Below are positions 21,297 to 63,399 of a DNA stretch of 64,000 nucleotides, piece by piece (position 1 is the first letter of the stretch; every line of letters starts with the position of its first letter). The notes beneath the pieces were generated by a model. That model worked only from the letters and a program-made list of their open reading frames with translations, had not been told where the DNA came from and searched no databases. The stretch lies in contig NC_088325.1 of NCBI RefSeq assembly GCF_910592395.1, positions 560,001-624,000 on the forward strand, in the 5' to 3' direction. A program made the translations under genes and the position numbers. The stretch is from Lineus longissimus (taxonomy: Eukaryota > Nemertea > Pilidiophora > Heteronemertea > Lineidae).

Positions 21297-22275
21297 GTCC
21301 CATAGAGTGCCTAGTGCCTAGTCCCATAGAGCGCCGAGTCCCATGAAGCGCCGAGTCCCATGAAGCGCCGAGTCCCATGGAGTGCCGAGCCCCAGAGCGC
21401 CGAGCCCCATAGAGCGGCGAGCCCCATAGAGCGGCGAGCCCCATAGAGCGGCGAGCCCCATAGAGCGGCGAGCCCCATAGAGCGGCGAGCCCCATATATA
21501 GAGCGGCGAGCCCATATATAGAGCGGCGAGCCCCATATATAGAGCGGCGAGTCCCATATATAGAGCGGCGAGTCCCATATATAGAGCGGCGAGTCCCATA
21601 TATAGAGCGGCGAGTCCCATATATAGAGCGGCGAGTCCCATATATAGAGCGGCGAGTCCCATATATAGAGCGGCGAGTCCCATATATAGAGCGGCGAGTC
21701 CCATATATAGAGCGGCGAGTCCCATATATAGAGCGGCGAGTCCCATATATAGAGCGGCGAGTCCCATATATAGAGCGGCGAGTCCCATATATAGAGCGGC
21801 GAGTCCCATATATAGAGCGGCGAGTCCCATATATAGAGCGGCGAGTCCCATATATAGAGCGGCGAGTCCCATATATAGAGCGGCGAGTCCCATATATAGA
21901 GCGGCGAGTCCCATATATAGAGCGCCGAGTCCCATATATAGAGCGCCGAGTCCCATATATAGAGCGGCGAGTCCCATATATAGAGCGCCGAGTCCCATAT
22001 ATAGAGCGCCGAGTCCCATATATAGAGCGCCGAGTCCCATATATAGAGCGCCGAGTCCCATATATAGAGCGGCGAGTCCCATATATAGAGCGCCGAGTCC
22101 CATATATAGAGCGCCGAGTCCCATATATAGAGCGCCGAGTCCCATATATAGAGCGCCGAGTCCCATATATAGAGCGCCGAGTCCCATATATAGAGCGCCG
22201 AGTCCCATATATAGAGCGCCGAGTCCCATATATAGAGCGCCGAGTCCCATAGAGCGCCGAGTCCCATAGAGCGAC
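21297..22275. repeat. Composite 21-bp/17-bp satellite, about 45 units
   Basis: The central block has about 34 units of 21 bp (CCCATATATAGAGCGGCGAGT). Both ends carry 17-bp units lacking a TATA tetranucleotide (CCCATAGAGCGGCGAGC). Within the 21-bp block, GGC variants dominate on the left and GCC variants on the right. Open minus-strand frames across it are read-through of the unit. Confidence 0.95.
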
Positions 22276-40200: not shown

Positions 40201-43200
40201 CAAATTTGCACATTCATCTCATAACTATATATCACAACTGTTTCTTCATTTTAGGTACACCTTCTGCACCCAGCAAACTCGAAGTTGTCAATTCAACTGC
40301 CGTAGCAGCGACGCTCAAATGGATCTCAGAAATCAATGGCGGGTTGGAGCAGAGATTTTACGTCCAATACAAGAAGTTTGCCGACAACTGGGATGTTGCC
40401 CCCGAGGTTCCCGAAGGAGGAATAACTGATCCAGGTCTCAAGAAAGCCGTGTATCATAAGATTATGGGTCTTGAGTCGAATGTCTGGTATATGTTTCGGG
40501 TGCGCAGCAGGAACTCCCACCCGGGGACTCACACCAGTAACTTTAGCAACGTGGCTTCTTGGGAAACACTAGGTTTGTGGATCTCTTTTAGAGACTTTTA
40601 TAGACATTCGATCTCTTCAGTTGTTTAGTTCACACCTGAGCTGCGTTATTTACCTTTTGGGGAATACCTCTGATGCACGTCATGGGTTTCTATGAATCGT
40701 TACTCTCAGCAGTACGGCAGGTCTTTGAATAGGACAAGAAGCTGAGATGCGTCCAACCGCCTTGGCGTCTATTGAGATAGGGGTATGGTTGATTTCGATT
40801 TCGCAACTTCGCCAAGTTACATGCCGTCAACAGCGGCATACCACACAAGTAGGCAATTTCATTTCTCCGTTAGACCTGCCCATATCCTCATCATATGCAT
40901 GGCCAATGTTTAAACCATTCCTTCAAACATGTTTGTTTTTTAAATTTGCAGAGAAACCCAAAACGTCCCTCATAGGTAAGAATCGAATAGGTAAAAAGTA
41001 ACCGTGGGCTGGGAACGAGTGACTGGAAAATATACAGGGCTTAAAGCTGAACTGCATGCACAAAACCAGAGCAGCTCATGCGGCAATAGTAAGAAATTCA
41101 AACGACCGAAAGGCCCTTCTGAATACGGCCTGAAACATGATAGACTCCAATGCTTCGATGCGCTTGATTTCACAAACCAGCAAGCCACAGGACGATGCGG
41201 ACAGTCTCGGAGAATTATTGAAGAGAAAAAAATCAAAATCTTCTGCAGGGATTCGAACCCGGGAACTAGGGCTCGGAATACAAACGCCCTAACAGTCTGA
41301 GCAAGGGGGCCTTCTTGTGAACTGCTGCCAGCAAATATATCTTATATGAATGGCGATTATGCTTTATTTTTGAGAGATGAACCAGAAATTTTCTCAAGTA
41401 CATGGAATAGAAGAAGACACCAAAACAAAGGTGAACATTGCTAAGAGAAAACGTAGACTCCGCATACATAATCACGCACAGCAAAGAAAAAATGACTTTC
41501 TCCCTTCAGTTGCCCACTGGAAGCCGCTCAAAGATGTCGAACAAAGATTACACACAAATGTTTGCACATTCTATAAAGGCGTATTAAACGACAGGCATTT
41601 CAAGCAGCCAAGTGGCCTTGAGGATAAGAGTGTTGGCAAATAAAACGAGAGGTCTCAAGTTCGAGTCCCGTTGAGAGGACCTTTTTATTTTTTTCCTTCC
41701 AGAATTCTCTGCGAAGGTCCGCATCGTCCCACGGCTTGCTGGTTTGTGAAATCAAGCGCATCGACGCATTGGAGGTCTATCATATTTCAGGCCGTATTCA
41801 GAAGGGCCTTTCGGTCGTTTGAATTTCTTACTATTGCCGCATGAGGTGCTCTGGTTTTGTGCATGCAGTTCAGCTTTAAGATCTGATAATGCCGGACCGA
41901 CACAGACGACTGCATGACCCACACCGTGCCTAAACAAGAGGCCGATAAGTCATATTATTAATATTATTATTATATGGTGGTCGAAGATGGTGGTGATGCT
42001 GTATACAGGAGCAGGGTCTTCAATGATGAGGTTGATGACCAAGTGTGTCAGGTTGACTTTAGCCGAATATGGACAAATAAAAGCTCGACGGATCGAACAT
42101 AGAAACGTCGATTCTTATTTCAACATGTCCTGATAATCTATTCATCCATATATACTGCACGCTGTCTGGCTAAAAAGGCTGAGTCTGATGAAGATAACAT
42201 CCAAAGGTTTTTTCTTTACAGCAGCTGTTGGCGGTCTTGTTGGAGCCGGCATTGTGGCGATAACAGGCGTCATTCTGGCTGTTATTTTAAGGTAAGCTAC
42301 TTCGGATGCAGGTCTGTTGGTAAAACGGCGACAGATTTCGGTGAAGTTGAAGCGAGGGGTGGGGGCAAAAAGTTGTCGACACTGGTTTCTTGATCGCACT
42401 ATAATTACGATCTACAGTTAATATCCCAGAAGCTAGCAACACATGAAGCTAGCTGATGATATATATTCGATAAATAATCTTTCAGATTTTTATCAAACAT
42501 TGACGGTTCATAGAGGTGGGTAATGAATCATTGAGGAAAGTCATTTGACATACATCCACCAATCTGAAATTAACCTGCCATGCACTAGTGATCGCTATTC
42601 GCGTAGAGTGACGAGAATCCCAAATTCCAGATCTTAGCCTCTCTAATAAATTGTATTTACTTCTGTAGGAAACGTTGTCTGCTGCGATGGAGAAAGAGGC
42701 AGTGTCATCAACCGGCAAATGACAACGCTGATTACGATGATACCAGGGTTGAATTCACAACAGCCGGAAATCCTCAGGAACAGATTTACGCCGAAATTGA
42801 GACAGATCACGTAAATGATGATGCCAGGGTTGAATTCACAACAGCCGGAAATCGCCCTGTACACACCTACGCCAACATTGAGACAGATCAGGTAAATGAT
42901 GTGTTTGACCCTGAACGCTGGCATGGACAAAAAACCCCACAGCCATTGCCTCCGGGGCACCGCGTTCCGGTTCACGGAGCCCGTAGGAATGAGCCTGCGG
43001 AGTCCGACGATGACGTGGACGCTGACGTGGGTGTTCCAGGTCAACGCCTAGTTCCTGCAACTCAGCAGAATCAAACGGAGTGTGGCTCCTCAGACGATGA
43101 GTCTGGGGAGTATATCTTAAGCGATCCAATAAGCGACCAGGAGGGACAGGAGCCTGAAGGTACATACAATGACCTACCAATCCACGTAACAGACGCACAG

Positions 43201-43821
43201 AAAGAGCTAAGAATCCACAAGGACGCGCCGCCTGACCAAAGTACAGCAGAGAGCAGTTCAAGACAGGCTAATGGCTCCTCAGACGATGAGTCTGGGGAGT
43301 ATATCTTAAGCGATCCAATAAGCGACCAGGAGGGACAGGAGCCTGAAGGTACATACAATGACCTACCAATCCTCGTAACAGACGCACAGAAAGAGCTAAG
43401 AATCCACAAGGACGCGCAGCCTGATCAAAGTACAGCAGAGAGCAGTTCAAGACAAGCTAATGGCTCCTCAGACGATGAGTCTGGGGAGTATATCTTAAGC
43501 GATCCGATAAGCGACCAGGAGGGACAGGAGCCTGAAGATACATACAATGACGTACCAATCCTCGTAGCAGACGCACAGAAAGAACTAAGAATCCACAAGG
43601 ACGCGCAGCCTGACCAAAGTACAGCAGAGAGCAGTTCAAGACAAGGTATTGGGTCTAATGAGCGGACTCCTAGTCGCTCGAATGGCGCCCAAGAGATGGT
43701 TACAAGTCGTTCGAACGACAATATGGGAAACGAGCAAGGGTCACTATACGCGCATTTAGATCCAGTAGCGCCAGTAACGCATGGAGAGTACTTGGACTTC
43801 AGACAACTAAGTTCGGAATAA
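34168..43821 (+). CDS. IgSF receptor gene: 4 Ig + FN3 + TM + tyrosine-containing repeated tail (9 exons)
   Basis: Joining 34168-34213, 34697-35008, 35528-35839, 38230-38523, 38894-39196, 40255-40572, 40952-40975, 42222-42291 and 42669-43821 gives one frame of about 943 codons with GT-AG introns. All extracellular introns are phase 1, the classic Ig exon-shuffling arrangement. Order: signal peptide (1-16), Ig1 (17-120), Ig2 (121-224), Ig3 (225-322), Ig4 (323-423), FN3 (424-529), an 8-residue linker, TM helix (about 538-559) followed by a basic stop-transfer run, then a cytoplasmic tail of about 380 residues. Ig domains N-terminal to a single membrane-proximal FN3 recall nephrin-type receptors; the tail's YxxL/I motifs suggest SH2-dependent signalling as in inhibitory or adhesion receptors. 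No orthologue is recognised. A plasma-membrane location is inferred. Start chosen: first ATG of a hydrophobic leader that splices in frame to Ig1. Confidence 0.85.
34697..35008 (+). CDS. IgSF exon 2: Ig domain 1
   Basis: Symmetric phase 1-1 exon of 312 nt. It carries the B-strand cysteine (TLSCNI), a C-strand tryptophan (IRW) and the F-strand cysteine (GVWWCEA). An extra cysteine pair (TNDC and NIQC) lies between them, probably a second disulfide. Acceptor TCTTAG|GT, donor CAG|GTAAGT. Confidence 0.88.
35528..35839 (+). CDS. IgSF exon 3: Ig domain 2, tandem copy of Ig1 exon
   Basis: 312 nt, phase 1-1, the same length as exon 2 and clearly homologous, including the shared NIQCDTNNYNFQLSNV stretch and the extra cysteine pair. 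Two tandem acceptors 6 nt apart (CCAG|TTTCAG|TT) allow exon starts at 35522 or 35528; both keep frame, so a two-residue alternative is possible. Donor TTAG|GTAAGT. Confidence 0.88.
35985..36150 (+). mobile_element. Probable short SINE-like insertion with (ATT)n tail
   Basis: This segment is present only in duplication unit 2 of the Ig exons and ends in GGCGCC...ATATCG then (TTA)n. A GCGC-rich hairpin followed by an ATT-type tail is typical of invertebrate SINE/LINE 3' ends. Boundaries are inferred from the alignment gap. Confidence 0.45.
37335..37621 (+). CDS. Possible alternative terminal exon (weak)
   Basis: After a good acceptor (CCTTTTCAG|GT) the frame compatible with phase-1 splicing from Ig2 stays open for about 95 codons and ends at a TAG. 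It contains two cysteines (KPCQW, VICLEF) but no recognisable Ig motif order. Used as a terminal exon it would give a secreted two-Ig protein. It could equally be chance open sequence in the 2.4-kb intron. Confidence 0.2.
37665..37950. repeat. Dispersed ATCCATGGAT-rich element, copy 3 (IgSF intron)
   Basis: Contains CATCCATAGATCTATGATGG and AGTGGGCCTATGATGGAA, the latter exact in the copy at 53345-53690. Lies in the 2.4-kb intron before the Ig3 exon. Confidence 0.75.
38230..38523 (+). CDS. IgSF exon 4: Ig domain 3 (I-set-like)
   Basis: 294 nt, phase 1-1. B-strand VRFECA, C-strand YQWLW, F-strand DRSGTYSCKAWN followed by a G strand (ASAVLTV). Full canonical disulfide. Acceptor TTTTCAG|TT, donor T|GTAAGT. 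Confidence 0.9.
38894..39196 (+). CDS. IgSF exon 5: Ig domain 4 lacking the B-strand cysteine
   Basis: 303 nt, phase 1-1. The F-strand motif SSDYGNYSCSV and C-strand YTWSKD identify an Ig fold, but the B-strand position reads ASFELFIIANP, with Phe where Cys is expected. The canonical disulfide therefore cannot form. Acceptor CCCACAG|TT, donor CCAG|GTAAGT. Confidence 0.85.
40255..40572 (+). CDS. IgSF exon 6: fibronectin type III domain
   Basis: 318 nt, phase 1-1. FN3 hallmarks: N-terminal TPSAPSKLEVV, a core tryptophan in ATLKWISE, a YVQYKK C'-strand and VWYMFRVRSRNS (the Y-x-F/V-R-V F strand), ending in SNFSNVASWET. Acceptor ATTTTAG|GT; the donor is the unusual G|GTTTGT. Confidence 0.9.
40952..40975 (+). 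CDS. IgSF exon 7: 24-nt microexon
   Basis: Between a good acceptor (AATTTGCAG) and donor (ATAG|GTAAGA) lie 24 nt in phase 1-1 encoding EKPKTSLI plus a split codon. Skipping it would also keep frame, so it may be an optional stalk segment between FN3 and TM. Confidence 0.6.
   Translation, partial: RNPKRPS
41036..41315 (-). mobile_element. tRNA-derived SINE, inverted-pair member 1
   Basis: On the minus strand, B box GGTTCGAATCCC with upstream TTGCTCAGACTGTTAGGGCG (A-box-like), then a body ending CATGCAGTTCAGCTTTAAG. The body matches 41615-41885 in opposite orientation. Confidence 0.75.
41615..41885 (+). mobile_element. tRNA-derived SINE, inverted-pair member 2
   Basis: B box AAGTTCGAGTCCCG, then the body (GGCTTGCTGGTTTGTGAAAT, GAAGGGCCTTTCGGTCGTTT) ending GCAGTTCAGCTTTAAG. 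Inverted relative to the copy 300 bp upstream. Both are in the intron before the IgSF TM exon. Confidence 0.75.
42222..42291 (+). CDS. IgSF exon 8: transmembrane helix
   Basis: 70 nt, phase 1 to phase 2. It encodes 22 uninterrupted hydrophobic/small residues (AVGGLVGAGIVAITGVILAV...), followed across the junction by RKRCLLRWRKRQ, a basic stop-transfer. Acceptor CTTTACAG|CA, donor AAG|GTAAGC. Confidence 0.88.
42669..43821 (+). CDS. IgSF exon 9: cytoplasmic tail with YxxI motifs and 3 x 63-residue repeats
   Basis: 1,153 nt ending at TAA. Residues 561-943. A first pair of related segments, about 20 residues each, carries VEFTTAGN followed by IYAEIETD or TYANIETD. Then three almost identical 63-residue repeats (from codons 699, 762 and 825) each carry a CK2-like acidic serine cluster (SSDDES), GEYILSDPI and GTYNDLPI (YNDV in repeat 3). 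The C-terminus has SLYAHL, a full ITIM consensus (S-x-Y-x-x-L) around Tyr920, and GEYLDF. Acceptor TCTGTAG|G. Confidence 0.88.
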
Positions 43822-44633: not shown

Positions 44634-45545
44634 GGACTTGTATGTTGATTGCATGTATCCGAGATGGTAAGGTTGGATCGTTTAAAGAAGACTTAGACTT
44701 GTATGTTGATTGCATGCATCCGAGATGGCGAGGTTGGATCGTTTATAGAAGGCTCGGACTTGTATGTTGATTGCATGTATCCGAGATGGTAAGGTTGGAT
44801 CGTTTATAGAAGGCTTGGACTTGTATGTTGATTGCATGTATCCGAGATGGTAAGGTTGGATCGTTTATAGAAGGCTTGGACTTGTATGTTGATTGCATGT
44901 ATCCGAGATGGTGAGGTTGGATCGTTTATAGAAGGCTTGGACTTGTATGTTGATTGCATGTATCCTAGATGGCGAGGTTGGATCGTTTATAGAAGGCTTG
45001 GACTTGTATGTTGATTGCATGTATCCGAGATGGTAAGGTTGGATCGTTTATAGTAGGCTTGGACTTGTATGTTGATTGCATGTATCCGAGATGGTAAGGT
45101 TGGATCGTTTATAGAAGGCTTGGACTTGTATGTTGATTGCATGTATCCGAGATGGTATGGTTGGATCGTTTATAGAAGGCTCGGACTTGTATGTTGATTG
45201 CATGTATCCGAGATGACGAGGTTGGATCGTTTATAGAAGGCTTGGACTTGTATGTTGATTGCATGTATCCGAGATGGTAAGGTTGGATCGTTTATAGAAG
45301 GCTTGGACTTGTATGTTGATTGCATGTATCCGAGATGGTAAGGTTGGATCGTTTATAGAAGGCTTGGACTTGTATGTTGATTGCATGTATCCGAGATGGC
45401 GAGGTTGGATCGTTTATAGAAGGCTCGGACTTGTATGTGGATTGCATGTATCCGAGATGGCGAGGTTGGATTGTTTATAGAAGGCTTGGACTTGTATGTT
45501 GATTGCATGTATCCGAGATGGCGAGGTTGGATCGTTTAGAAGGCT
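44634..45545. repeat. 61-bp minisatellite, about 15 copies
   Basis: Unit starts GGACTTGTATGTTGATTGCA and includes GAGATGGTAAGGTTGGATCG; period 61 bp. Copies differ at few sites (GGTAAGG/GGCGAGG). The first and last units are the most diverged. Confidence 0.95.
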
Positions 45546-45549
45546 TACC

Positions 45550-49768: not shown

Positions 49769-50634
49769 TTATGCTAATGGATTATACGTTTGATATCGTT
49801 TGGCCGCGCTTGGGGTCCGGTGATGCCGCGGAGGTCCTTGGGCGCCTCCTAATGAGTCTGTAGCTGAATTATTAGGCGAATGAATCTGAGAGTTTTTATT
49901 GCTTTTTGAATAGTACGGCCTGTGTGGTGTATTGTCAGGCTGGCCGTCGGGCTCCCCTCCACCGCGCCGACCCGCCGGCCGTTTGGAGGAGGGGTCTGGT
50001 ATAGAGCTATCCCGAGAGTCCGACTCGTCAAAGTCTCGCCGCGGTGGAGAAACGGACCGGTGTCGAGACGGTGAGCGTGATGGGGAATCAATAGCGAAGC
50101 CGATATCACTAGGGTCCAACGGGCTCCTCGAGCTCTTTGGAGTCGGGGTCCGCACATGTGCCGAACTAGAGCTCCCGTCTACCAACTTCCGCTGGTCAGC
50201 CGGTCGCCGGGGTTTGCTGCGGCGGCCATCCGGGCGATGCTTTTTGCGCCGGTCATGCGCGTCCCTGGGATCCCGGTCTCTATCCCGGGGCGACGTGTCT
50301 CGCCGGTGATGGCGGTTGGGCGAATCCCTGTCCCGTTTCGGTCGCTGTGCCAGCGGCGGCGGCTCAGAGTACCGGTCGTCCCGATGATGAGGGCGACTTA
50401 AGGTTGATTCGTGTGATTTGGGATGCCTCCTGTCCACTAGCCCGTCATACGTCGGCGGATTAAAGCTCTCCATCTCCTTCGCCTTTTCCTTGTCAGCCTT
50501 TTCTACCTCTGCAGCTTTCTTGGCTTTCTTCATGGCATTTTTTCGATAACAATAGAAGATGAGCATGTCGAATATCTCGAAGATGCTAAGCAGACTGGCG
50601 CCGATGTACAGGCCCATAGAGCCCCCGATGTCAC
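49769..50634 (-). CDS. DEG/ENaC last exon: TM2, GAS filter, PY motif and R/D/S-rich tail
   Basis: 866 nt from acceptor CCTTCAG|GT to the stop. Begins DIGGSMGLYIGASLLSIFEIFD, the family's TM2 with Gly-Ala-Ser filter, then a lysine/glutamate helix (KKAKKAAEVEKADKEK). PPTYDGL (residues 970-976) fits the PPxYxxL Nedd4-binding PY motif of vertebrate ENaC subunits. The rest is very rich in Arg, Asp, Pro, Ser and His (RDRDRDPRD, SPSRSPSRHRSVSPPRR) and probably disordered. No clear polyadenylation signal was seen just downstream. Confidence 0.92.
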
Positions 50635-53600
50635 CTGAAGGAAGGAACAACCTTCGAATCAGAATTGCAATTTAAAAGATATGAGGTAAACAGAGAAAAG
50701 TAAAGATAACGTCATGTTTAATGAACACCAGCAATAGTGACAAAAGTTGTTTCATCAACCAGGCCCTGAATGCAGGTATAAATTCACTCTATCAATCAAT
50801 CAATCAGTCTCCCCAGTCCGGCATTTGAACACCAAGAGCAGAATCTTGTGCTGGATCCTGCACCAGTCTTGTAGCCAGTGCAGGTGAACCAGCACAGGGG
50901 AAATATGGTCAAACTTTCCAACCAAACACACAACTCTTGCGGCAGAGTGTTGTATCAACTTACTGAGTAACGAAATGACTGTATAGGCCGGTTGTTGGCT
51001 GATCTCCTGGTAATACAATTCGCGGAAAAAGATGTCCATGCTGATGAAGTTTGCCCTGAAATATATAGCGATGTGATGAATTTCAAGGAAGACGCAGGTC
51101 AAGATGGATGGAGGTGGTGACGCGAGATTCCGAGTCGGCAGATTCAGGGAAAGACGTACTGAGCCGCTGCCAACGACCGTAGAAACTAGCGACGTACCCT
51201 TGCACAGTCGTGTTGCCATTGTGAGTAAGTGAGTGACTATCAAGTACTAAAAGAAGTTTAATCTTTTTGTGTCACCCTGTAAATCAACGTTACCACGTTG
51301 GTTCCGTTTTCTGCCACCAGGTGCCGTCAACTTACGCATAGTATTTTTCATCCAGCTTATTGCCGTCTAAGTAGGCTTTCATATCCGTCTGGACGAGGTC
51401 CATGGCGTCGAAAAACCTGGTGTGATTCCTGCCATAAACAGGGCTTAGCTCGTCTAATGATTTGTACTCGTCCAGTTTTGTGAACCTGGATGGGAGAAAG
51501 GAATAAGAGGCCATTTGCCAGGAACGCTTTTGCCACCATGGGTCGGGAAAACAAACCATCTCTACAATATATCTTCACAGTGAAAGACGCCAAATATTGG
51601 CACGAGAGGCAATAGGGCCGTTTACACGGGACCAAACTAAACCAGGACAGACCAGCATTTTGATTAGCATATGGTTTTGTAAACAAACTCTTTCAATGAG
51701 GCGATGTTTTAACACCCTGTATTCGGAATTCTGCAATCAGACTTCAGAAATTCCGGAAACTCATTTTCCTAACTTCTGACAGAAAACTACGCCATAATTC
51801 TCACGAAAATATGAGAACGAAAATAGACCTGACTTACCCGAGGGCTGTGTCTAGCGACGCCTTATCCTTAAACACGGGGACGTATTTCGTAAAATACGGT
51901 TTCAGATCCGTATTCGAGAGAATCAGGTTCGAAAGAGACTGCTCAGCTGTCTTCAACGAATTGTATTTATCCTGAATGTCCGAATTTCTACCCTTCGTGT
52001 TCTCGAAGAAGTTGCGTAACCTGTAATGATTTGACAAAAATGCGGCTCAGGTGTAGTTTTGGTTTTTACTCCTTACAAAGGGACAACTTGGGAAAAAGAT
52101 ATCTTGGTTTTTCATACAAAAAGGCCTCCAGCTTCCAGCCAAAGTTGGCGGTAGCCTAAGTGACAGCGAGTAGCCTAAAGCGTTAAGGCACTGCCGCCGA
52201 AAACTCCCTCGGACGACGGAGTTGGCGTCCAGTGTTCTTCAAGCTTAAGACGGAAACTTCTTCCTGAGATGCCACACCACCGCACTTACCTGTTCAGCCT
52301 CACCACGAAGTCTGGAGCCGTGAACGCTTTCGAGACGGCAGTCTTGCCTTGAGACTCGTCCTGGATTATGCCAAGGGCCCCAGTCGCAGTAGTGAAGACC
52401 AGTTTAAAGATGTGTTGGATGTCCTCGAGTTCAACCATGGCCGATGCGACCGTACTTTTCATTTCTTTGAGAATCTGAAAGTAGGTCATACTCAGTACTC
52501 TGCGCAGTAATATTTGGTGAAGCAGTCGTACTGTCATAGCTTGATTTGGCCGACATTGAATCTGAACGTGTTGAAAACACTCATTTGCAGGTTGAATGAT
52601 GCGGGTGAAATCTCGGTTTTCGATCCACATACACAATACATAAACAAACAGCGCAATGGCGCTCTTTCTGCCAGTGACAAATCTTCAAAAGCGCCCCCAA
52701 TGTGTTATTTATTCATTATGTGAGTAGAGCAACAGGCCATCTACAAAATCAAGTGTCAGTAAGGGGTTAAAAAATTGCAAAAGGGTTAAGGTAGAAAAGG
52801 GAGCAAGAAATCAAAGAGGTCTCAAAGAGAACAAAGTTCCACTTCAGACGTTCGCTCCCTGTACATCGTGCAGTGCATTTATGTACAGGGGTCCGTTTAC
52901 ATTGTTCAGTGCATTTGAATACAGGGGGCGTACTTTGTGGATTCTTTCTCCGTCTTTAACTTTAGCTCTTCATGAATATTTTATAACGTTTTAACCCATT
53001 TGTTTCAGTGGCCTATATGGTAGACTCATGTTCGGGCCATCCACGGCGCAAGTGGAATTAGTCCTACTCGTGCTCGAGTTGTCAACAGCTGAAGTGGAAT
53101 TATATAGACTAAAAATATTACTTATCAAGAAAAAGAAAACTCACTTTGCTTATTTCGATCTCATTCGACTTGATGGTCAAAATAACTTTCGCAGCCTCGT
53201 TCAGAGGATACATGAAGACCTCACTCATCACCATCCCGAGGTTGGTGTCGTATTTCGTACATTGCTTTTCATAAGGCAGCGTCCATTTTGCCTGGAACTG
53301 GTCCCGTCGATATGGCACCTAAAATGAACGGTAAACAGAGATGAAACTCTCCATGCATGGACCGATCACGGGATATCATCATTAACGTTCCATCGATGGG
53401 TCACCGAGGATATGTGATGGAAAATTTCTATCATAGATCCATCGATGGAACCCATTGTCGTATCTATCATGAGCCCATCATTGATTAATGGATGGAATCC
53501 ATTATAATTTTTTCGACAGGCCATCATGTTACTCAAATCGGTATGTACTCTGCTGCATAGGCATACGTTCATCCTTATGGGACCAAACGTCAGTGGGCCT

Positions 53601-56600
53601 ATGATGGAACTCCTATCAATTGAATGTCCATGGCCCATCAATGGATCTACCATTGGCCTTCATAGAATCTATGATGGGATCCCAGCGTAAAACGTGGCGT
53701 ACCGGCCTTTAAAAGCCCATACAAGCAGGAATGGAACGACGTCATCAGATAATTCCAGTTCTTGTCATGCGCGAAAAGGATCACTCACCTTGTGGAAGAA
53801 GACGTCAACAAGGAACTTGCCCATTCTCGTGTAGCTATCCCTCAACGACACCAACAGGGTCTCGCAGGTCTTTAGCAGCGCCGCCTGCTTGGGCAGCGTA
53901 ACGGCCGAACTCAGTACGGTCTTCGGAATGATCATAGCGTGCTGTTCGACAGAGTACTCCGCCTTATATTTCTGCGTATCCATCGCTTTAGCTTGGGTGT
54001 AGTGAGATTTCACTTGTAGCAACACGTCTTTTGCGTCTCTGCTCAATGTGCTTCTTGCAGCTAATCGGTCGTCCAAGACGGCCTGGAGAGACCGCTTCAG
54101 GTCAACGTCTCCTTTCCCTGCCGCGGCGCCATTCTCGCCCGTAATGCGTTCAAACTTTCTGTAAGAGTCGATGATGAGTTCCCTGTACATGAGCGTGACA
54201 GGGTTGAAGTAGCTTGTGTATTTGGAGACCACTGGTCGGTAGAAGTTCCAGTCGAGGACAAACCTGAAGCAAAATATGCTGGTTTAAGTGAACTATCCGA
54301 CTGTACTCTGGTTGTGGCTTTGTCTTAAGGACGGTTTGCGAGGAACGTGCAACAAAACGAAGATTTTGATGTCTTTCCTTACAACAATGGTCCTTGTGCT
54401 CAGCCAGAGGCCAGTGTAACAGTAACAAATGCCCCCCTGGAAAATGTGTCCGGCCCTATTGTATTCTGCAATATGGTTCTATAGAGACCCTGACCGTCAA
54501 TAGCTCAGAGATTGAAGCGCATAATAGAATCCTTTGTTTCCCGGGCATTCTATCCGAGGACATTTAAACTTCTACACCGGTCGCTAATTCTGGTGACCGT
54601 TGCTACGGAAGTAGACACCATAATCTGTTATTGAAAAAGACACTAGGTTATTTTTCACCCCTAAAAAGCTGGCAATTCCTTTCATACGTTGTCTGGTATA
54701 CTGCCCGTTTTCAATTCTTGGGCGGTTTGGGACAAGAAAATAACAAGATGGGGGCATAGTAGGCCGCGATAGCCATCTTAATAGATAGTACTCACTTTTG
54801 AAAGTCATAAACCTCATTAATCTTCTTGAAGACATCCTCCGCATCTCGGATGAGTTCCTCGATGTGTTTCTGCATCCTGTCCAAGGCCTTTGGCAGCTCG
54901 TCATTCAGGACCTTCCTCAGCTCAACCGCCCTGCCGACCAACTTGTTAATCATCCCCGCATCTTCGGCCAGGAGCTCCGTCCTGGTCGCAGTGACCGTGT
55001 CGCGAGCCTTGCTAAACTTCTCTTGGAGTTTCGTCTTGTTTGCAATTTGGAACAGCTTGTAGACGTCTGCTTTAGCACTTTTTAAGTAGCTCAGGTTTGG
55101 CTGGTAGAAGAATGTTTCACAACCTGGTTGGCAGCTACAGGCCTCAACATTCTTTTCGAATTCCCCTGGAATAGGATTGAAATTTTGATATCAGTGTTTA
55201 AAAATGTTAATAGGTTTTTTCATATCGTGCTGGCCAAACCAGATCATAATTACCAAAAGATAGCGGTGTTGTGCAGATTATCCGTAGGATAGGCAAGATT
55301 AAAGACTCTGGGATAGGCCTAGCAAAATAACGCTCTTTCACAGCTGTCGGCTATCATTCTTGTTGGGCTCAGACAGCACGGCTATGATCAGATACGGATG
55401 TTTGATTGGTCAAAACCTGTCACCTGACAGGAAGTCCTACGCAATTTCTGCTTGAGGAAATGGCGAATGGCCGCAACACTGACAGGCGACAATCAGAGGA
55501 AAATGTATCAGAATTAGTTCTACAAACCCTTCGTTTCATTCTCACATCTCATGGCCACGTCTTTCAAGCAATCCTTGACACCTGTTGACAAAACAAAACA
55601 ATGGTAAACTGATGAGGGAACCGATAATCGATTTTGTTCGCCAGTCCTATTGTTTATGCAAAGTGACATCACGAGCCATAAACACCACTATCAATTTGGC
55701 GAAAGTTAAACATTTTCATGATATTTTTCACCTTGAGGCCGCGATTGGGCAGAGTGCCCATGTCACTGTTCACTTTTCATGCGTGACAAAAAAACCGAAC
55801 AAGCCATTTTCAACTCGTAACAACAGAAACATGACAAGTGAGTGCGGCGTGAACCTTATATAACTGCGGCCTTAGGAATACAAGTCTAATTTCTCATATG
55901 TTTTACTGACTTAAACTGAACATCAATCGTGCATATGTGACCCGTCACAGCAAAACCAGGCGCATATCGCTCTGAGCTTGACAGGTTGATCGAGACGGAC
56001 TATTTGTTCATTTCACTGTTGTCTGCCTTTTGTGAAATATGAGCACATCAATTTCTTCTATTATCTCCTGGTGTCATTAAGGCTCATCTAATGTGCGACA
56101 TGCGACTGGTTTTGCTGTGACGGGTCACATATTATTGGAATAATCCGCTGGCCAAAGGCCTTTGCCTGGCAAATAATCAAAGGACATCGACATACGTCAA
56201 AAACAAGACGACAGGTGATACAAATCTGTCGTCAAACAGTATTTTTCAGTCAAATTTTAAAATAAAAAAAGTCGCTATCAAATACATCTGTACGCGAACT
56301 GTCTACTTATTTTAGTAGTTAATTTTATTCCCGAAGGCGTCGCAGCAGAATGTTGTTCCCTTCTTTCATAACCTTAAATGCAACAATCTGATTGGTCGCG
56401 ACTCACCTGGCACCTCCATATATGGAAGGGTACAGCCGCAATTCTTGACGAAGAAATCGGTCCAGCATTCTCTCCTACAGGCCATCTGGGTGTAATACGT
56501 GAAGTACTTCAACGTTTTGGTTTTCGTGCAGTTGCCGTAAGGCGGCTCCACTCGCTTCATCTATAAAGAAAGCGTCGTCAATGGTGATCATCGCTGCCAA

Positions 56601-59600
56601 GTCTCACTCGACCTGCTGTAGAGGGACTATGAGAGAATTTCAACGGGTGTATGTAAAATTCGTCATTAGGACCGAAGACCGGGAGATTGGGGGTTCGCTA
56701 TGAATGCAGTTATACACGAGGCCGTAGTGCAGGTATTATGCATACAAATTTGCTGAAACTTGGTAGCCACAGTCTTTTCATAGCTGTCTACATAACAGCA
56801 ATAAGTGAATTATGTGAAGAGATTCATTTTTAAAGGCCTTTTAAAGGCCTTTTAAATTTGTTATTGAATTTGAAAATTTCCAATCGAGTAGATAACAATA
56901 ATTATGTACAATTCACATACGATTGTCAGCACAGCACAGCACAGCACATTCCCGCAGCTAATCAGATATAGAGGTGGCATCATTGCAGTAATTAAACACT
57001 GCAGTGTGACGAAACTTGGCACGCATTGTTTTTATATGCATGTGCGCATTACATCAACGCTATTTCCGATACTTAATCACAAAATGTCATTTTCTTAAAC
57101 GATTTAATAATCTCTGAACTGAAAATTAAACGTGTGTATGTTACAACCATATCGATACTTACATGTACATCGTGCTGCACTCCGAGTACATTTACCGTGA
57201 AACACGAAGAACAAAAAAGCATCTGCTAAACAAAAGGAAATGAAAGAAGACTCCTGCGCAGCTCCGGAACTGGCTTTATTGATGACGTCCGTGACTGTCA
57301 CTGTCAACACAGGCCGCCATGACTGAAATTCTACTCCGAGAATCTTGGAGTAACAACAGGCGCGTGAAGATACCAGAGTACAAATCGATCAGCCCCGAAT
57401 TGACTGGTGCACAATAACCTACATCTTCCATGACCAGGTCATTGTGTGCTTTCTGTAGGTTTAATTGGACCTGATCGTTAGTTAAAATTGACTGTTAGAT
57501 TTTGGTATCTTCACGCGCCTGTTGCCATGGTGTGATGAAAGTCTGTGTTGGCAGAGAGAATATCCTTCGATCTGCTTGGAGAATGAAATAAAATATAAAC
57601 AAAGGATAGAATAAAATAAATAAATGAATTCGTACCAACCAACCCCTTGAATTTACAGAATTTATATTCAGAATGAGAAATAATAACATGAAGTTTTGTT
57701 TGGTTTATATTCCCTCGGTATTCTACCTCTGATCAATCTTGAATTATATATTCTTCATCGACCAGTGCGTCGTCGTTCGTTCCAAAACACATTTGTTACA
57801 ATGTGTCATTTTTAGTAAATATGAATTATTTATAAGGAACAAAAACGGAAGTTTTGGTGCCTTCCAATAAATATATTCATTACATGTCCGCGACCAATAA
57901 ATATATTCATTACATGTCCGCGACCAATAAATATATTCATCACATGTCCGCGACCAATAAATATATTCATCACATGTCCGCGACCAATAAATATATTCAT
58001 TACAGGTCCGCGACCAATAAATATATTCATTACAGGTCCGCGACCAATAAATATATTCATTGCATGTCCGCGACCAATAAATATATTCATCACATGTCTG
58101 CGACCAATAAATATATTCATTACAGGTCCGCGACCAATAAATATATTCATCACATGTCCGCGACCAATAAATATATTCATTACATGTCCGCGACCAATGA
58201 ATATATTCATTACATGTCCGCGACCAATAAATATATTCATTACATGTCCGCGACCAATAAATATATTCATTGCATGTCCGCGACCAATAAATATATTCAT
58301 TGCATGTCCGCGACCAATTTATCACAACAACTAACGCATATACATATTGCATTTTTTTAAACTGCGAATATCAAGTACATGTGATTTTAAATGATACAAA
58401 AAAATTAACAAAATGGCCAAAAGCTGCAACAAAACCATAAGCTGAATTGACACGTTATTTGATCCGTGTAACAGATTTAAACGTCCTAGAAGAGAAAGTC
58501 CCGGGAACAAAGGATTCTATCATGCGTTATCATCATCCATATCTTAATACGTGCATAATATCGCTGTCCAGTAATGAAAGTTATTATCCCTTCAGGTTCA
58601 GGACTTTTTAATGAAAAACCCGATACATGCGCGCGGACAAGAAACATCTAATTATTTTCTTTTGCCTAATTTCAGGATAGTGCATGTCACTACTACACAG
58701 TGTATTTATCCACCTACCACGTTGACGCTGAGGCCAATAAAAGCATGACTTCCGGTTGGCATACCGAGGCCCATTTCAAAGACGCTGGCAATGTCGTTGC
58801 GATCGAAGAGGAGAAATTTTAAGCCAGCCGAATCGTGAGGGCCTATCATAGCCTCGTAATTCTCAGCATTTAATGTCAGGCGAAGACCAGCATTTAAACC
58901 TGGAAAAAAATCAAAAAATTTAAAATCAGGTGTCTATCGGGCGCAAGTGGGGATAGATTTGAATATACCCTAACCAATTATCAACTCCATTGTGGCTTTA
59001 AGCGAAGCATAACAAGGCGAAATTTGAAATCACCAACCCGCTGAAGCAAATAATTAATCCTGGATATCAGAAATTTAAAGATTCGTATGGCCGGCTTGAA
59101 ATCATTGGCCGACTCACCGTCTTCAGATTGAGGCCAATGAAAGTGTAATACCCAGGACTCACCCCCGACCCCAGTTCAACAATAGCCGGGATGTCCCTGT
59201 TGTCGTGCAAGAGGAACTTGACGCCCTCTGATTTGTGGGGCCCTGCCATATACTCATACGACTCGACGTTTACTAGAAGGCTGAGGCCTGCAGCGCCCCC
59301 TGAAATGCAGCGGTGTGTTTGAAAATTAAACTGATGTTGATAAAATTGCTGCAGAGAAGTTGGCTGCTTGTCTAGTGTCAGCAGTCCTCCGCTGTTTTTC
59401 CGAATCTCGAAAGCCATTTACAGATTTGACATTTTACCGAATAACCTCTTCGGCTGCAAATTTTTGCCAGTGAAAACCCCCCAAAATGTTTTTCAAAGAG
59501 CTCAAAAACCTTCATTTCGAAGAGTGCTGAAACATACTCGACATAAAAAACGACAAAAATGTAGTACTCACCCGTATTTTTTGTAACTTTTGAATTATCC

Positions 59601-62600
59601 GGCGCATCTGCTAATGCATTTTTCGCTCTTATGTTGAAAATATAACAGAGGCCATGGTCCGTAAACTCGAGAGTGAAGTTATGTGGACCACAGTCCACAC
59701 CCTCCCATTTACAGCTGCCAAAGTGAAAAGAGACAAGATTGGTTATATGAAATATACACTAGTTTCACCGATATACGACCACCGTCCTATATTCTATTCA
59801 AACTCGATGTTATTCATACATGGTCGTATCATCCCATTCCACACGTTTATCACATCGTTTGTAAATTTACAATTTCCTCTTTTTGTTTCTCCGATTCAAG
59901 TGCCGACAGCTGACGTCATCAAAACATGCGTTCCAACCAGAAAATGTGAATTCTTTCGAATGGCTCACCGTAAAATATTAGTAAAACATAGCCATGTAGT
60001 AATTTGCATCCTCAAGTGTCACGTTAACATGATAACAAAAAACACTGACGTCATCAACGCATGCGTACTCACCTCACAATCATATCCTCCTTCGTGTGAC
60101 CCATTGTTATTAATAATTCCTTCTCGGTGAGATTGGTCGCATTAAAGTTCTTGAGAATGGAGGTGACATTTAATTCATCTTTCGTCCCTTCGTGTGGTTG
60201 ATAAATAGCCTTTATTAGATCGAGCTTCTTCGCCGCCGCTGCTTTTGTGATTCTAAAAAAACCCAACAGAATCAAAAATATAATGAATGAGGTCATTCAG
60301 TTATATTTCTGAAAAATGAATAGCGAAGCTACCTCTTAATAACGTCAGAAGACATCGCGTCCTGCGTATTATTTTGGCGATAGGGATTTTTCGCAAATCT
60401 TTGAGTCGCCAAGACGAACGTTTGTCTCATTGTTCGACCTCCTGATAACGGAGTCGAACAATGGAATAGGCGTTCACGTGGACGTTTTGGGGGCTTTACG
60501 AAAACACCCTATTGGCCATGAGTTAACCGTGAAATTCTCCGAATTCACAGTCACTGTAACTAGCCGAGGTGTTACCGACAGCTGAAAAAAATTGTTCGTG
60601 AATTTCCCGTATTTCCCGTGACCAGACAAGGTTTTATTGACAATAGATAGAATTTTCCGTGAAATTCGCCGAATCCACTTTGAGTACAGCCAAATTTGAC
60701 CGACAATTGAAAATTCTCGGCTCTCTCCCTTCACTATTTTTTCAAACATTTCTGTGTCAGAAATCAGAAGTGAAAGTGGCTTCTACAAAAACCCTTTCCC
60801 TGGATTGGCATCCGGGCCCGATTGTTCAAAACAAATCATGTCACTAACTTCGCGTGAACTTTCACCGAAAACACCAGGGCCCGGTTGTCCAAAACCTGGT
60901 TAATAGTTAGCAACCGCTAAGTTTTAGCGACCGCTACTTAACTTGGCTAAACCCCATGAAAAACCCTTGCGGTATCGCTAACTTAGCGGTCGCTAAGCCT
61001 AACAGAGCGAACTAATCTTTAGACAGGTTTGGCGTCTGTAACATGAAGCACTAAGCAAAGAGGTCTGTCATGCCACCAAGTCCTGCGCTAATTCATTTAG
61101 GCGACACTCGTAAATCATCTTCTATATACTTAGAAATCCAGGAATTCAATAGAAAATCTTTCATAACATGAATTTACCACGAGCGTACCAGAGGGGAGGA
61201 TGGCTAATCTCAAATAATGTATCCACCTATTAATAGTTGGTTGCTGCACCTAAATGAATGCAGATGCAGAAAACAGCTTGCGATAAGGGTTTAAAAATAT
61301 TTAAACATGACAAATACTTTTCAAAACCATCGCCAACAATAAAACGCTTGTAAAAACGAGAATAAATCAGAGACTTTTAATAAATTTGTATTGAAAAACT
61401 CTGAATGATAATGAAACGAAATGTATCGTCTATGCCTGGCTCGGGCCTTGTTTCGAAAACATGATCAGTCATCAATGTTTTGCCATGTCTTAACACTGGT
61501 GAGATCTTAATTCCTCAACTTAATCGCCATGTTGAAGCGTACCACGCTATACACCCAAGGAGAAGAGTCCATTGGTCATCTTCATTGTTATTTAGGGTAA
61601 TTCAATACTATTCGGGCAGGTTTTTTTGACATCGGTGGCACCAAAATGGGCAATTAAAAAGGGTCACCCTAAATAACAAAGGTCGTAACCATTTGACTGT
61701 TATCCTGTCTGTATAGCAGGGTATTTTTGTGGACACGGTGCGCAATTTATCAACGCTAATGGTATTATCAGTTTAGGAAAAATTGGGTAACTGACGCACA
61801 CCATTGTTTTATTACACCTGCAAAATTTGAAAACTTAATTGGGTAAAAAGTTAATTCATCTTCTGCCTTATCAAAATTACAAAATGGCCAACCGTCACCA
61901 AACTTCGTGCCCTAGCGTCAAAGGTAAGAACCAACCTTTAGGGCACCTACCTATAGGTGTTCTGATTGCATAACGCTACACCAGGAAAACGGATGGTTTT
62001 ATTAAAGTTCACCTCGACTTGGACCATCACTGGGGCAGAGGCCAAGAACTCGATACGATTACTAACTTGGAACAGCAGGAACGACAAGGAGCCGAAGAAA
62101 AGAAGGCACCACAGCATTCTGAAACAGGAAGTGTACGGGTTTACTGGCAGTGGTACGGGCTTACCTGTATGCATTTTGATTACATAAGGCTACGGACGGG
62201 AAGCGGATGGTTTTATTAAAGTTGATCTCGACCTTTGCCATGACGGGTGCTGATGCTAGGTAGATGATGCGGTTGCAAATCTGGATCACCAGAAAGGTCA
62301 GAGAACCAAAGAAGAGAAGAAACCACAGGACCCTGGAATAGAGAGCAAGTTTGTATCGAAAGGGGTCGAAATACATCACCCTGCCAGAGATACTGACGTC
62401 AGACGACGTTTTATCGACACATCGCCTCATCGTTGTGCGTATCATCGTAACTTTTTTATTTGGAATTAGAATCATGACGTAAATGGCGATAATATGCACG
62501 ACGTGGCGATGATATATCGCCTGACTAAAGGTGAATATAGTGAACGGTCACATGACACAAAAAGGCTTATAAAGATTTGAATAAAAGAATAACTCGTCTC

Positions 62601-63399
62601 ATATCTAACAACTTCGTCAGTCGGTTTTGGAGGCAAAAAGCCCTGCATGGAAAATTGGTTTAATGGGAATGTACTGATTTCAACAAGACTAACAATGGAA
62701 GGTGGGTTTATTGAGTGAGTCCACGAGCGCACGGCCCTGCAAAGAAAAGTGGACTTCATGGAGTACTTCAGTCCACACGGCCCTGCAAAGAAAACTGGCC
62801 TTAGTTGAAATTTATCTGGTCGACAAGGACATGTACATGTATGGCTTTAATGGAAAGTGGTGGGTTTAGTGGAAGTAAAAAGGACAAGCAATGAGAAAGC
62901 AGGTTTAATGGAAATTGACGTGAATCCACTAGGCTAATTAAAGCAGTGGAAATTGAGTTAATGGACATTTATTGACTTCAAATACATGGAAAGTCAAAAT
63001 AGCCCAGAAATGAAAACTTGACTGAATTGAATCGAAGGTTAGTCAGTCAAAAAGGCCCAGCAATGGAAAGACAAATGGGCGAGGTCCAGCGTCAAGATAT
63101 ACTGTGTTTGCAACAGGTCTGGAAAAGGACCTTGCAGGCAAAGGTTTTGGTAACCAACAGGATAAATGAACAACCCTACCTTCGGAACCACGTGGTACCG
63201 AGTTCCCACATGAAGTGTACGCCATGGAAACTCGTATACTGTGTAAATCCGAGGAAGTTCTCCGCCAGGGTTTCCGGTGTCTCCACGGCCTTGGTGTCAT
63301 CCGTCCTGGTCGACGACCGGCGCTTTCCGTACTCAACGCTGTCGCGATTACCCTTTCCGCAATCTCCATTTTCGATTTCGAATGCCCGGTTTTTGTAGC
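49769..63399 (-). CDS. DEG/ENaC/ASIC-family channel with duplicated exons and a giant ectodomain insertion
   Basis: Eighteen exons on the minus strand splice in perfect phase; one transcript uses 16 and encodes at least 1,198 residues. Family marks in order (numbered from the first residue seen): N-terminal His-Gly gating motif (FHG, 59-60), TM1 with FPSVALCNQN after it, the cysteine-rich ectodomain (CKWEGVDC, PPYGNC, CGC, C-x7-C, CSCQPGC), and TM2 with the GAS selectivity filter (922-924) after LLSDIGG. Such channels are trimeric Na+ channels of the plasma membrane gated by protons, peptides or force. Odd: two exon pairs that look mutually exclusive (61951-62332; 58718-59299), about 460 extra residues before TM2 and a 260-residue tail with a PY motif. 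The start-codon exon is not identified; it must lie upstream of 63399, possibly beyond the window. Confidence 0.92.
50964..51055 (-). CDS. DEG/ENaC exon: pre-TM2 palm strand
   Basis: 92 nt, phase 2 to 1, acceptor TATTTCAG|G, donor TCA|GTAAGT. Encodes NFISMDIFFRELYYQEI and QPAYTVISLLS, strongly ASIC-like (x-x-DIFFxxLxYxxI ... AYxxxxLL). The split codon gives Ser at the degenerin position before DIGG. Confidence 0.9.
51336..51485 (-). CDS. DEG/ENaC insertion exon 5, returning to the family fold
   Basis: 150 nt, phase 2-2, acceptor CATCCAG|G, donor ATGC|GTAAGT. Contains an N-glycosylation site (NHT) and ends NKLDEKYYA. From this point the sequence again resembles the ASIC segment before the palm strand that leads to TM2. 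Confidence 0.83.
51838..52020 (-). CDS. DEG/ENaC insertion exon 4
   Basis: 183 nt, phase 2-2, acceptor ATTACAG|G, donor TCGG|GTAAGT. Helical (NSDIQDKYNSLKTAEQSLS) with DLKPYFTKYVPVF. Skipping keeps frame. Confidence 0.8.
52290..52474 (-). CDS. DEG/ENaC insertion exon 3
   Basis: 185 nt, phase 0 to 2, acceptor ACTTTCAG|ATT, donor ACAG|GTAAGT. Helical, charged (ILKEMKSTVASAMVELEDIQ...), ending in DFVVRLN. Confidence 0.8.
53145..53318 (-). CDS. DEG/ENaC insertion exon 2
   Basis: 174 nt, phase 0-0 (58 codons), acceptor TTTTAG|GTG, donor AAA|GTGAGT. Contains YEKQCTKYD, the only other cysteine of the insertion, which might pair with the one in the previous exon (inference). Its skipping would keep frame. 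Confidence 0.82.
53345..53690. repeat. Dispersed ATCCATGGAT-rich element, copy 4 (channel intron)
   Basis: Contains AGTGGGCCTATGATGGAA and TGTCCATGGCCCATCAATGG as in copy 3. Lies between insertion exons 1 and 2 of the channel gene. Confidence 0.75.
53789..54263 (-). CDS. DEG/ENaC insertion exon 1
   Basis: 475 nt, phase 2 to 0, acceptor GCTTCAG|G, donor AAG|GTGAGT. 159 residues (about 491-649) with no family motif; mostly helix-forming, with one cysteine (KTCETL) and a Gly/Ala linker (GENGAAAGKGD). Flanked by in-phase exons on both sides. Confidence 0.82.
54796..55165 (-). CDS. DEG/ENaC exon: CSCQPGC motif, then start of helical insertion
   Basis: 370 nt, phase 1 to 2, acceptor TATTCCAG|GG, donor AAAA|GTGAGT. 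Begins VEACSCQPGCETFFYQPNLS, the last family cysteine block. From about residue 412 it leaves the family pattern and becomes a heptad-like charged helix (LRKVLNDELPKALDRMQKH and similar) without cysteine. Confidence 0.9.
55528..55581 (-). CDS. DEG/ENaC 54-nt exon carrying C-x7-C
   Basis: Phase 1-1, good acceptor (TTTTGTCAACAG|GT), weak donor (AAGG|GTTTGT). Encodes VKDCLKDVAMRCENETK. Its C-x7-C falls exactly where ASIC/ENaC proteins have a cysteine pair between the CGC and C-x-C motifs, so I include it despite the donor. Skipping keeps frame but would drop two conserved cysteines. Confidence 0.72.
55934..56132. mobile_element. ~199-bp MITE with TIR ATATGTGACCCGTCACAGCA
   Basis: Left TATGTGACCCGTCACAGCAA and right TTGCTGTGACGGGTCACATA are exact inverses, extending into AAACCAG and GCGCAT/GCGACAT. 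Lies in the channel intron upstream of the 54-nt exon. A partial relative runs off the window end at 63932-64000. Confidence 0.85.
56407..56560 (-). CDS. DEG/ENaC exon: thumb, PPYGNC ... CGC
   Basis: 154 nt, phase 0 to 1, acceptor CTTTATAG|ATG, donor CCAG|GTGAGT. Encodes VEPPYGNC, YYTQMACRREC and KNCGCTLPYMEVPG, the disulfide-rich thumb signature. Either palm exon (both end in phase 0) joins it in frame. Confidence 0.92.
56698..56890. repeat. Dispersed element family 1, copy 3 (intron of the channel gene)
   Basis: Contains ATGCAGTTATACACGAGG and AAATTTGCTGAAACTTGGTA, then an AAAGGCCTTTTAAA segment also echoed near 6995-7005 and 16975. Confidence 0.7.
57867..58320. repeat. 30-bp minisatellite, 15 copies (channel intron)
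   Basis: Unit ACCAATAAATATATTCATTA + CATGTCCGCG. Variants at two positions (CATG/CAGG; TTAC/TCAC/TTGC). It is open on both strands because 30 is a multiple of three. Lies between palm exon C2 and the thumb exon. Confidence 0.95.
58718..58899 (-). CDS. DEG/ENaC palm/beta-ball exon, version C2 (mutually exclusive candidate)
   Basis: 182 nt, phase 1 to 0, acceptor TTTTTTCCAG|GT, donor GTG|GTAGGT. Same length, phases and motif order as C1 with about half the residues identical (AGLRL, GPH, KFLL, FIGL). The His-Asp...Pro motif has become FDRNDIA and V-x-P-G has become MPTG. The intron between C1 and C2 is 218 nt. Including both would shift the frame. Confidence 0.88.
59118..59299 (-). CDS. DEG/ENaC palm/beta-ball exon, version C1 (mutually exclusive candidate)
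   Basis: 182 nt, phase 1 to 0, acceptor CATTTCAG|GG, donor ACG|GTGAGT. Encodes AGLSLLVN...GVKFLLHDNRDIP...GSGVSPGYYTFIGL. It keeps the family's His-Asp...Pro and V-x-P-G motifs, so it looks like the ancestral version. Confidence 0.9.
59572..59714 (-). CDS. DEG/ENaC exon: first conserved cysteines and GLCYIFN motif
   Basis: 143 nt, phase 2 to 1, acceptor TTGGCAG|C, donor ACGG|GTGAGT. Encodes CKWEGVDCGPHNF and TDHGLCYIFN, matching the family pattern C-x-W-x-G-x-x-C ... G-x-C-Y-x-F-N. It precedes both alternative palm exons. Confidence 0.9.
60073..60252 (-). CDS. DEG/ENaC exon: proximal ectodomain
   Basis: 180 nt, phase 2 to 2, acceptor TTTTTTAG|A, donor GTGAG|GTGAGT. Encodes ITKAAAAKKLDLIKAIYQ and then a charged helical stretch with two N-x-T sites, ending HTKEDMIV, the finger region before the first conserved cysteine. 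Confidence 0.87.
60880..61020. repeat. TAGCGGTCGCTA-type element (channel intron)
   Basis: Related to 47390-47630 by GGGCCCGGTTGT.CAAAACC and TAGCGGTCGCTAAG. In the intron between the TM1 pair and the next exon. Confidence 0.55.
61951..62118 (-). CDS. DEG/ENaC TM1 exon, version B (mutually exclusive candidate)
   Basis: 168 nt, phase 2 to 2, acceptor CTGTTTCAG|A, donor ATAG|GTAGGT. It encodes the same segment as version A, with 41 of 55 residues identical. Most changes are in the helix (I/E, Y/F, C/S, I/F), while NFNKTIRFP and VALCNQN are kept. Only 46 nt separate it from version A, too short for normal splicing of A to B. Confidence 0.9.
62165..62332 (-). CDS. DEG/ENaC TM1 exon, version A (mutually exclusive candidate)
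   Basis: 168 nt, phase 2 to 2, acceptor CTATTCCAG|G, donor ACAG|GTAAGC. Encodes TM1 (VLWFLLFFGSLTFLVIQICN) and the post-TM1 segment with NFNKTIRFPSVALCNQN. Joined to the previous exon it restores Arg at the split codon. Confidence 0.92.
63180..63399 (-). CDS. DEG/ENaC exon: cytoplasmic N-terminus with HG motif
   Basis: 220 nt, phase 1 to 2, acceptor CATTCCAG|GC, donor GAAG|GTAGGG. It encodes 73 residues ending ENFLGFTQYTSFHGVHFMWE, the conserved pre-TM1 segment with the His-Gly gating motif. No methionine precedes the motif, so an upstream exon supplies the start. A longer open frame at 63043-63369 is a different, non-coding frame. Confidence 0.88.

Follow-up and report, generated by a model that had tools for sequence, protein, structure and literature searches.

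To our knowledge, the outer domains of DEG/ENaC channels vary mainly in short loops. A stretch of 64,000 nucleotides from the nemertean Lineus longissimus (contig NC_088325.1 of assembly GCF_910592395.1, positions 560,001 to 624,000 of the forward strand; here called the window) raises the question whether a member of this family can carry a module of several hundred residues on its extracellular side, and what such a module might do there. On the minus strand, from position 63399 to 49769, the window contains a gene for a DEG/ENaC subunit that we assembled from 15 exons joined in frame, two of which exist in alternative copies. According to the original prediction, this subunit has an insertion of about 460 residues that follows its last cysteine block and precedes the strand before the second transmembrane helix (TM2). 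This observation was confirmed and turned out to be larger in extent than first reported. The reading to which we incline, with a little more belief than doubt, is that the subunit belongs to a family of paralogues with a homologous, all-helical extracellular module at the turn between the helices alpha6 and alpha7, which likely serves as an outside sensor or anchor.

The coordinates of the six exons described for the insert (55165-54796, 54263-53789, 53318-53145, 52474-52290, 52020-51838, and 51485-51336, all on the minus strand) hold. All six are bounded by GT/AG splice sites and continue in frame into the exon of the pre-TM2 palm strand (51055-50964, containing NFISMDIFF) and into the TM2 exon. 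The insert measures 463 residues (residues 410 to 872 of the window protein) and has two cysteines, the number originally counted. All six exons are coding, but only four of them are wholly insert, as the outer two also encode conserved parts of the channel. Exon 55165-54796 contains the last cysteine block (CSCQPGC) and the knuckle helix alpha6 up to the motif NKT and then runs unbroken into the start of the insert, which finishes inside exon 51485-51336 and is followed there by LDEKYY. As the first insert residues thus lie in the exon of the cysteine block and LDEKYY lies in the last insert exon, the insert is anchored at both ends in channel exons. In each of the six exons, the coding frame was the sole stop-free forward frame and had the top codon score among the six frames, using a codon table trained on the gene's other exons. 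Exon chaining between the fixed cysteine block and the pre-TM2 exon recovered the same seven exons, with two edges shifted in frame, and gave 100.5 bits over 531 codons on the real DNA, whereas 87 of 100 dinucleotide shuffles contained no legal chain and the remaining 13 did not exceed 15.3 bits and 130 codons.

To which position of the known channel fold does the insert correspond? The window protein was split by phmmer at residues 409/873 against residues 394/395 of the human ASIC1 chain 6ave. Residue numbers in this chain are higher by one than those normally used for ASIC1 (H73 is chain residue 74), and the break therefore follows ASIC1 Asn393, a residue described as sitting between alpha6 and alpha7 (PMC3562204). 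The NKT motif of the window protein aligned with NKS of ASIC1, which is the Asn393 sequon, and LDEKYY aligned with KSEQYI, located after Asn393. By this alignment, the insert site is shown to be the turn between the knuckle helices alpha6 and alpha7.

The protein matched the Pfam family ASC (PF00858) with 1.9e-86 and 291.3 bits (cut-off 23.6), in two stretches. Hydropathy windows above 1.6 start solely at residues 71-78 and 917-920, corresponding to two transmembrane helices, and the GxS selectivity filter is present in TM2 (GLYIGASLLSIFE). The best PDB sequence matches were ASIC2 (6l6p, 4.6e-61) and ASIC1 (6ave, 8.7e-57). The cysteine content was 4.4% in the channel core and 0.4% in the insert.

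We then searched the genome (391,118,348 bases in 30 contigs), which gave at least 104 ASC matches, counted exon by exon with 93 of 221 candidates scored. From part of these matches, eight genes with a single long open frame (L001-L008) and 22 multi-exon genes were examined. Most of the multi-exon loci were picked because their matches to the first transmembrane helix (TM1) began like that of the window, and other multi-exon clusters were added, and since they were chosen by TM1 likeness, the insert-bearing share is not a random-sample figure. Among the 22 multi-exon genes, 16 clearly carried a homologous insert at the corresponding site according to tblastn or profile searches (L009/10, L011, L013, L014, L015/30, L018/38, L019/37, L020, L021, L022, L023, L024, L025, L027, L028, and L034), so that the idea of an insert standing alone in one gene had to be given up. 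The insert of L016 was weak (profile 8.9e-5, then 0.0017 with a wider profile, and no tblastn match at 0.001), and that of L032 was recognized by position only and matched no profile. No insert was seen in the multi-exon gene L026, and L017, L035, and L036 were counted neither as carriers nor as genes without insert. For two of the clear carriers the values differed between searches: L023 scored 1.9e-7 and then 0.011 with the wider profile, but 5e-15 in tblastn with L010, and L013 scored 5.4e-8 and was then not listed at 0.05 with the wider profile, but reached 1e-39 in tblastn with L010. None of the eight single-frame paralogues had a comparable insert: the distance from the last cysteine to the TM2 motif was 99 to 127 residues in seven of them and 50 in L005, which has another cysteine pattern, versus 531 residues from the cysteine block to the TM2 motif (position 381 to 912) in the window protein. 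As a side observation, L016 (2418-5060, plus strand) has about 700 residues from the cysteine block to the pre-TM2 end motif, and their middle part is Arg/Gly-rich and repetitive within the same open frame.

In ten genes one open frame spans the cysteine block together with the whole insert or most of it (L010, L011, L016, L020, L024, L027, L028, L037, L038, and L015/L030, the last being two pieces of one 551-residue open frame), which excludes a separate insert gene and speaks against direct splicing past the insert. The open frame of L034 comprises the cysteine block and about 400 residues. When the inserts alone were compared by blastp, that of the window matched those of L021 (2e-24), L011 (2e-18), and L030 (2e-18), and in the genome search with the insert the four best paralogues ranged from 4.8e-21 to 5.4e-14. 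All seven mainly-insert matches outside the window at E ≤0.01 fall in stretches with ASC matches. The intron following the insert had an identical place and phase in all 12 genes compared, including that of the window.

The distribution of the insert was also compared with the channel phylogeny, leaving out genes with fewer than 150 covered positions (L002, L004, L006, L007, L008, L017, and L035). In the first tree, 20 rows lay beyond one branch (support 96/99), with L001, L003, L005, and L026 outside. The insert is present in 19 of these 20 rows, including L016 (weakly) and L032 (by position only); the remaining row is L036. In the second tree, which leaves out L018, L019, and L036 and in which L034 was labelled as an insert carrier, the 17 labelled rows were all on one side of a branch with support 86/94, and this was the case in 82% of 200 bootstrap trees. 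L005 and L003 were long branches in both trees. For L018 and L019, the tree had already indicated clade membership when their insert exons came to light; the open frames of these exons then matched the earlier insert profile with 4.3e-26 and 4e-54, respectively. Within the family, common descent of the inserts is shown.

Ten inserts, of which those of L030 and L034 are partial, were compared with respect to their properties. The eight complete inserts have 437 to 476 residues. In all ten, the helical hydrophobic moment was above that of shuffles (z 3.1 to 6.4), while the strand angle was without excess. Glycine plus proline made up 4.1 to 7.3%, the number of cysteines was 0 to 3, and no clear transmembrane segment was found in any of the ten, the highest hydropathy window being 1.61 in L024. 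The pooled inserts contained 59 N-glycosylation sequons versus 34.2 in shuffles, with the greatest excess in L021, L030, and L034. Together with the placement after Asn393, the helical periodicity, the lack of a clear transmembrane segment, and the sequon enrichment support the prediction that the module is helical and extracellular. AlphaFold2 (AF2) given the alpha6 exon alone drew a single helix that covers residues 22-118 of 122, with a mean predicted local distance difference test (pLDDT) score of 74.9. Insert identity was 23% versus 50% in the core for the window protein and L021, and 37% versus 70% for L011 and L034. Of the ten pairs compared, nine had an insert identity well under that of the core, and the exception was L010 with L020 (54% versus 64%). 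The insert identity between the window protein and L020 rests on 75 columns only. Six aligned insert sequences, three of them partial, shared 15 scattered invariant columns.

Searches for relatives of the module outside the family were negative within the databases used. The window insert matched no Pfam or NCBIfam family at cut-off (best DUF948, 0.0007, 20.2 bits versus 37.2), and no Pfam family matched more than two of nine aligned inserts (best E 0.0011; cut-offs seen for the first member). The single window insert matched no PDB chain up to E 10. A nine-row insert profile gave 16 weak PDB matches, at best 0.0044. Viral stalks and designed bundles made up most of them, and we read these matches as generic helix similarity. 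Three possible similarities within the gene were rejected after comparison with shuffled sequences: the score of an internal repeat in the insert was reached by 15 of 100 shuffles, that of a pre-TM2 strand duplicated at the beginning of exon 54263 by 50 of 1000, and that of a similarity between insert and channel core by 171 of 200.

What could the module do? The original prediction had offered a coiled coil, a tether, or a force lever as possibilities. In the mechanism proposed here, alpha6 would be prolonged as one long helix that enters the module, from which the chain would come back as a bundle beside the point where it left, and the trimer would carry three of these bundles, projecting from its knuckles. 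A ligand, a matrix contact, or a force acting on the bundle could then be passed to the finger, the palm, and the pore. In FaNaC, alpha6 is reported to help form the peptide pocket (PMC11993918), and a part in sodium self-inhibition is suggested for the knuckle of ENaC (as cited in PMC6827283). As alpha6 lies in the knuckle and contributes to the FaNaC pocket, and as the ENaC knuckle is implicated in self-inhibition, a sensor or anchor is favoured over an inert tag. With moderate confidence, we therefore prefer a rigid helical projection continuous with alpha6, which may sense or anchor, over a passive spacer. A more specific version, in which alpha6 is extended to a long rigid arm with a returning bundle and the pore is opened or closed by a pull or binding event at the distal tip, is doubtful at present and put forward tentatively.

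Several points weigh against the sensor or anchor and the structure proposed for it. The AF2 block pLDDT was about 49 to 77 in the alpha6 part and rose up to 97 only further on, AF2 run on a single sequence may be too ready to predict long helices, and exon 54263-53789 alone gave a pLDDT of 40.5 and no usable model. The window insert itself has only one sequon, versus 2.3 expected. The low insert identity also fits weak constraint, and the alignment underlying the trees was anchored on the window protein, which is a bias.

A module acting as a passive spacer, a shield, or an assembly handle for the choice of trimer subunits, with no part in gating, is possible, although we give this explanation clearly less credit. 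It would account for a sequence that drifts fast while length and helicity persist, with insert identity about half of core identity in most pairs, and the pooled sequon enrichment fits it as well; in addition, the many paralogues could need sorting into trimers. A mere spacer is less easily reconciled with an insert that prolongs alpha6, which is part of the structure of the extracellular domain. The window gene and 16 clear paralogues have also all retained the insert, with no loss shown inside the clade, which suggests use. Alternatively, the module might be a binding site for a diffusible ligand such as a peptide or another cue, and the family a set of chemoreceptors with different inserts. 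The expansion of the family with fast-diverging inserts and the part that alpha6 has in the FMRFamide pocket of FaNaCs (PMC11993918) speak for this idea, but no conserved pocket is recognisable in the scattered invariant columns of the six sequences and no ligand is known, and we consider it unlikely.

Two further explanations concern the transcript rather than the function. The five exons within 54263-51336, 1167 nt in total, are skippable in frame according to phase arithmetic and translation of the skipped form, and short isoforms might therefore dominate. This appears very improbable, as about 80 helix-prone residues of exon 55165-54796 would be left without a return path and the paralogues keep insert and cysteine block in one open frame. 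That the insert exons derive from another gene or are a product of chance is hardly credible any more in view of the reading frame, the codon use, the homology, and the common intron within the channel family, and it is refuted by the one-frame paralogues.

H73 and an aromatic residue at Y71 are described as important in proton-gated ASICs (PMC10507113). In the window protein the H73 position is Val in TM1 copy a, with the same SAPV motif in copy b, and the Y71 position is Ala; ASIC-type proton gating is therefore unlikely, judged from these residues. The palm position K211 is Asn in the alignment to 6ave, with a Lys one place upstream.

The other exons of the gene, all on the minus strand, complete a subunit of at least 1197 residues, whose first coding exon and true start were not found. 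The N-terminal exon (63180..63399, with FTQYTSFHG of the HG region) opens at an acceptor, which requires at least one further coding exon upstream. It is followed by the TM1 exon in two copies of 168 nt with the same phases (copy a, 62165..62332; copy b, 61951..62118), an exon of the finger region from ITKAAAAKK to DMIV (60073..60252), an exon from CKWEG to CYIFN (59572..59714), a beta-ball/palm exon in two copies of 182 nt (copy a, 59118..59299; copy b, 58718..58899), and two thumb exons (56407..56560, from PPYGNC to CGC, and 55528..55581). The TM1 copies are identical in 42 of 56 residues and are probably mutually exclusive, because the 46-nt intron between them looks too short for splicing. 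The beta-ball/palm copies share 30 of 61 residues, and as the use of both or neither breaks the frame, exactly one must be used. The frame stays open in all four combinations, and the two pairs allow four channel forms. The last exon (49769..50634) encodes TM2 with the GAS filter and ends with a stop codon after a cytoplasmic tail of 262 residues. This tail contains PPTYDGL, which conforms to the PPxYxxL version of the PY motif of ENaC; the pattern occurs in 19 of 5000 shuffled tails. A tandem array of 30-bp units lies at 57864-58318 inside an intron of the channel gene. Elsewhere in the window, open frames encoding immunoglobulin and fibronectin III domains precede a frame that contains 189-bp repeats, and together they are likely to represent an immunoglobulin-superfamily gene (34606-43821, plus strand), and further tandem arrays have units of 21 bp (21477-22251), 57 bp (14225-15138), and 61 bp (44634-45546).

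Compared with known channels, the window protein resembles ASIC1 and ASIC2 in the core family fold as judged by sequence, the GAS filter, and the aligned Asn393 sequon, but differs from ASIC1 by the 463 residues after the Asn393 position and by the three substitutions at H73, Y71, and K211. With ENaC it shares the PY-type motif in the tail, whereas its sequence is closer to ASIC. With FaNaC, in which alpha6 belongs to the peptide pocket (PMC11993918), it has in common the membership of DEG/ENaC, yet the best matched stretches of the FaNaC chains lie in the channel part (residues 70-384 for 7yvb and 180-341 for 8on7), and the insert alone gave no match to any PDB chain, whether of FaNaC or of ENaC. 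The original prediction knew of no family member with this architecture. This stands insofar as we found no described large insert of this type in the accessible text of the open-licence PMC literature, and the words insertion and knuckle are absent from the main text of a survey with Lineus longissimus transcriptomes (PMC9949801). The site itself has a precedent in the Trichoplax TadNaC channels, for which inserted loops have been described between the two helices of the knuckle; these are presented as predicted loops, with neither a length nor a helical domain given in the text concerned (PMC6827283).

Genes of this kind can easily be overlooked or wrongly annotated, because the insert breaks their profile match in two. 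Tags placed in ASIC outer domains are reported typically to impair trafficking (PMC3562204), and a natural family that has a 53-kDa, apparently helical module at a single site reveals where this fold tolerates large cargo. The paralogues with and without the module, and those with diverged modules on similar cores, are ready-made sets for asking how force or ligands reach the pore. If the rigid-arm proposal is true, it would represent a new coupling of an external tether or ligand to the DEG/ENaC gate, in a nemertean receptor family.

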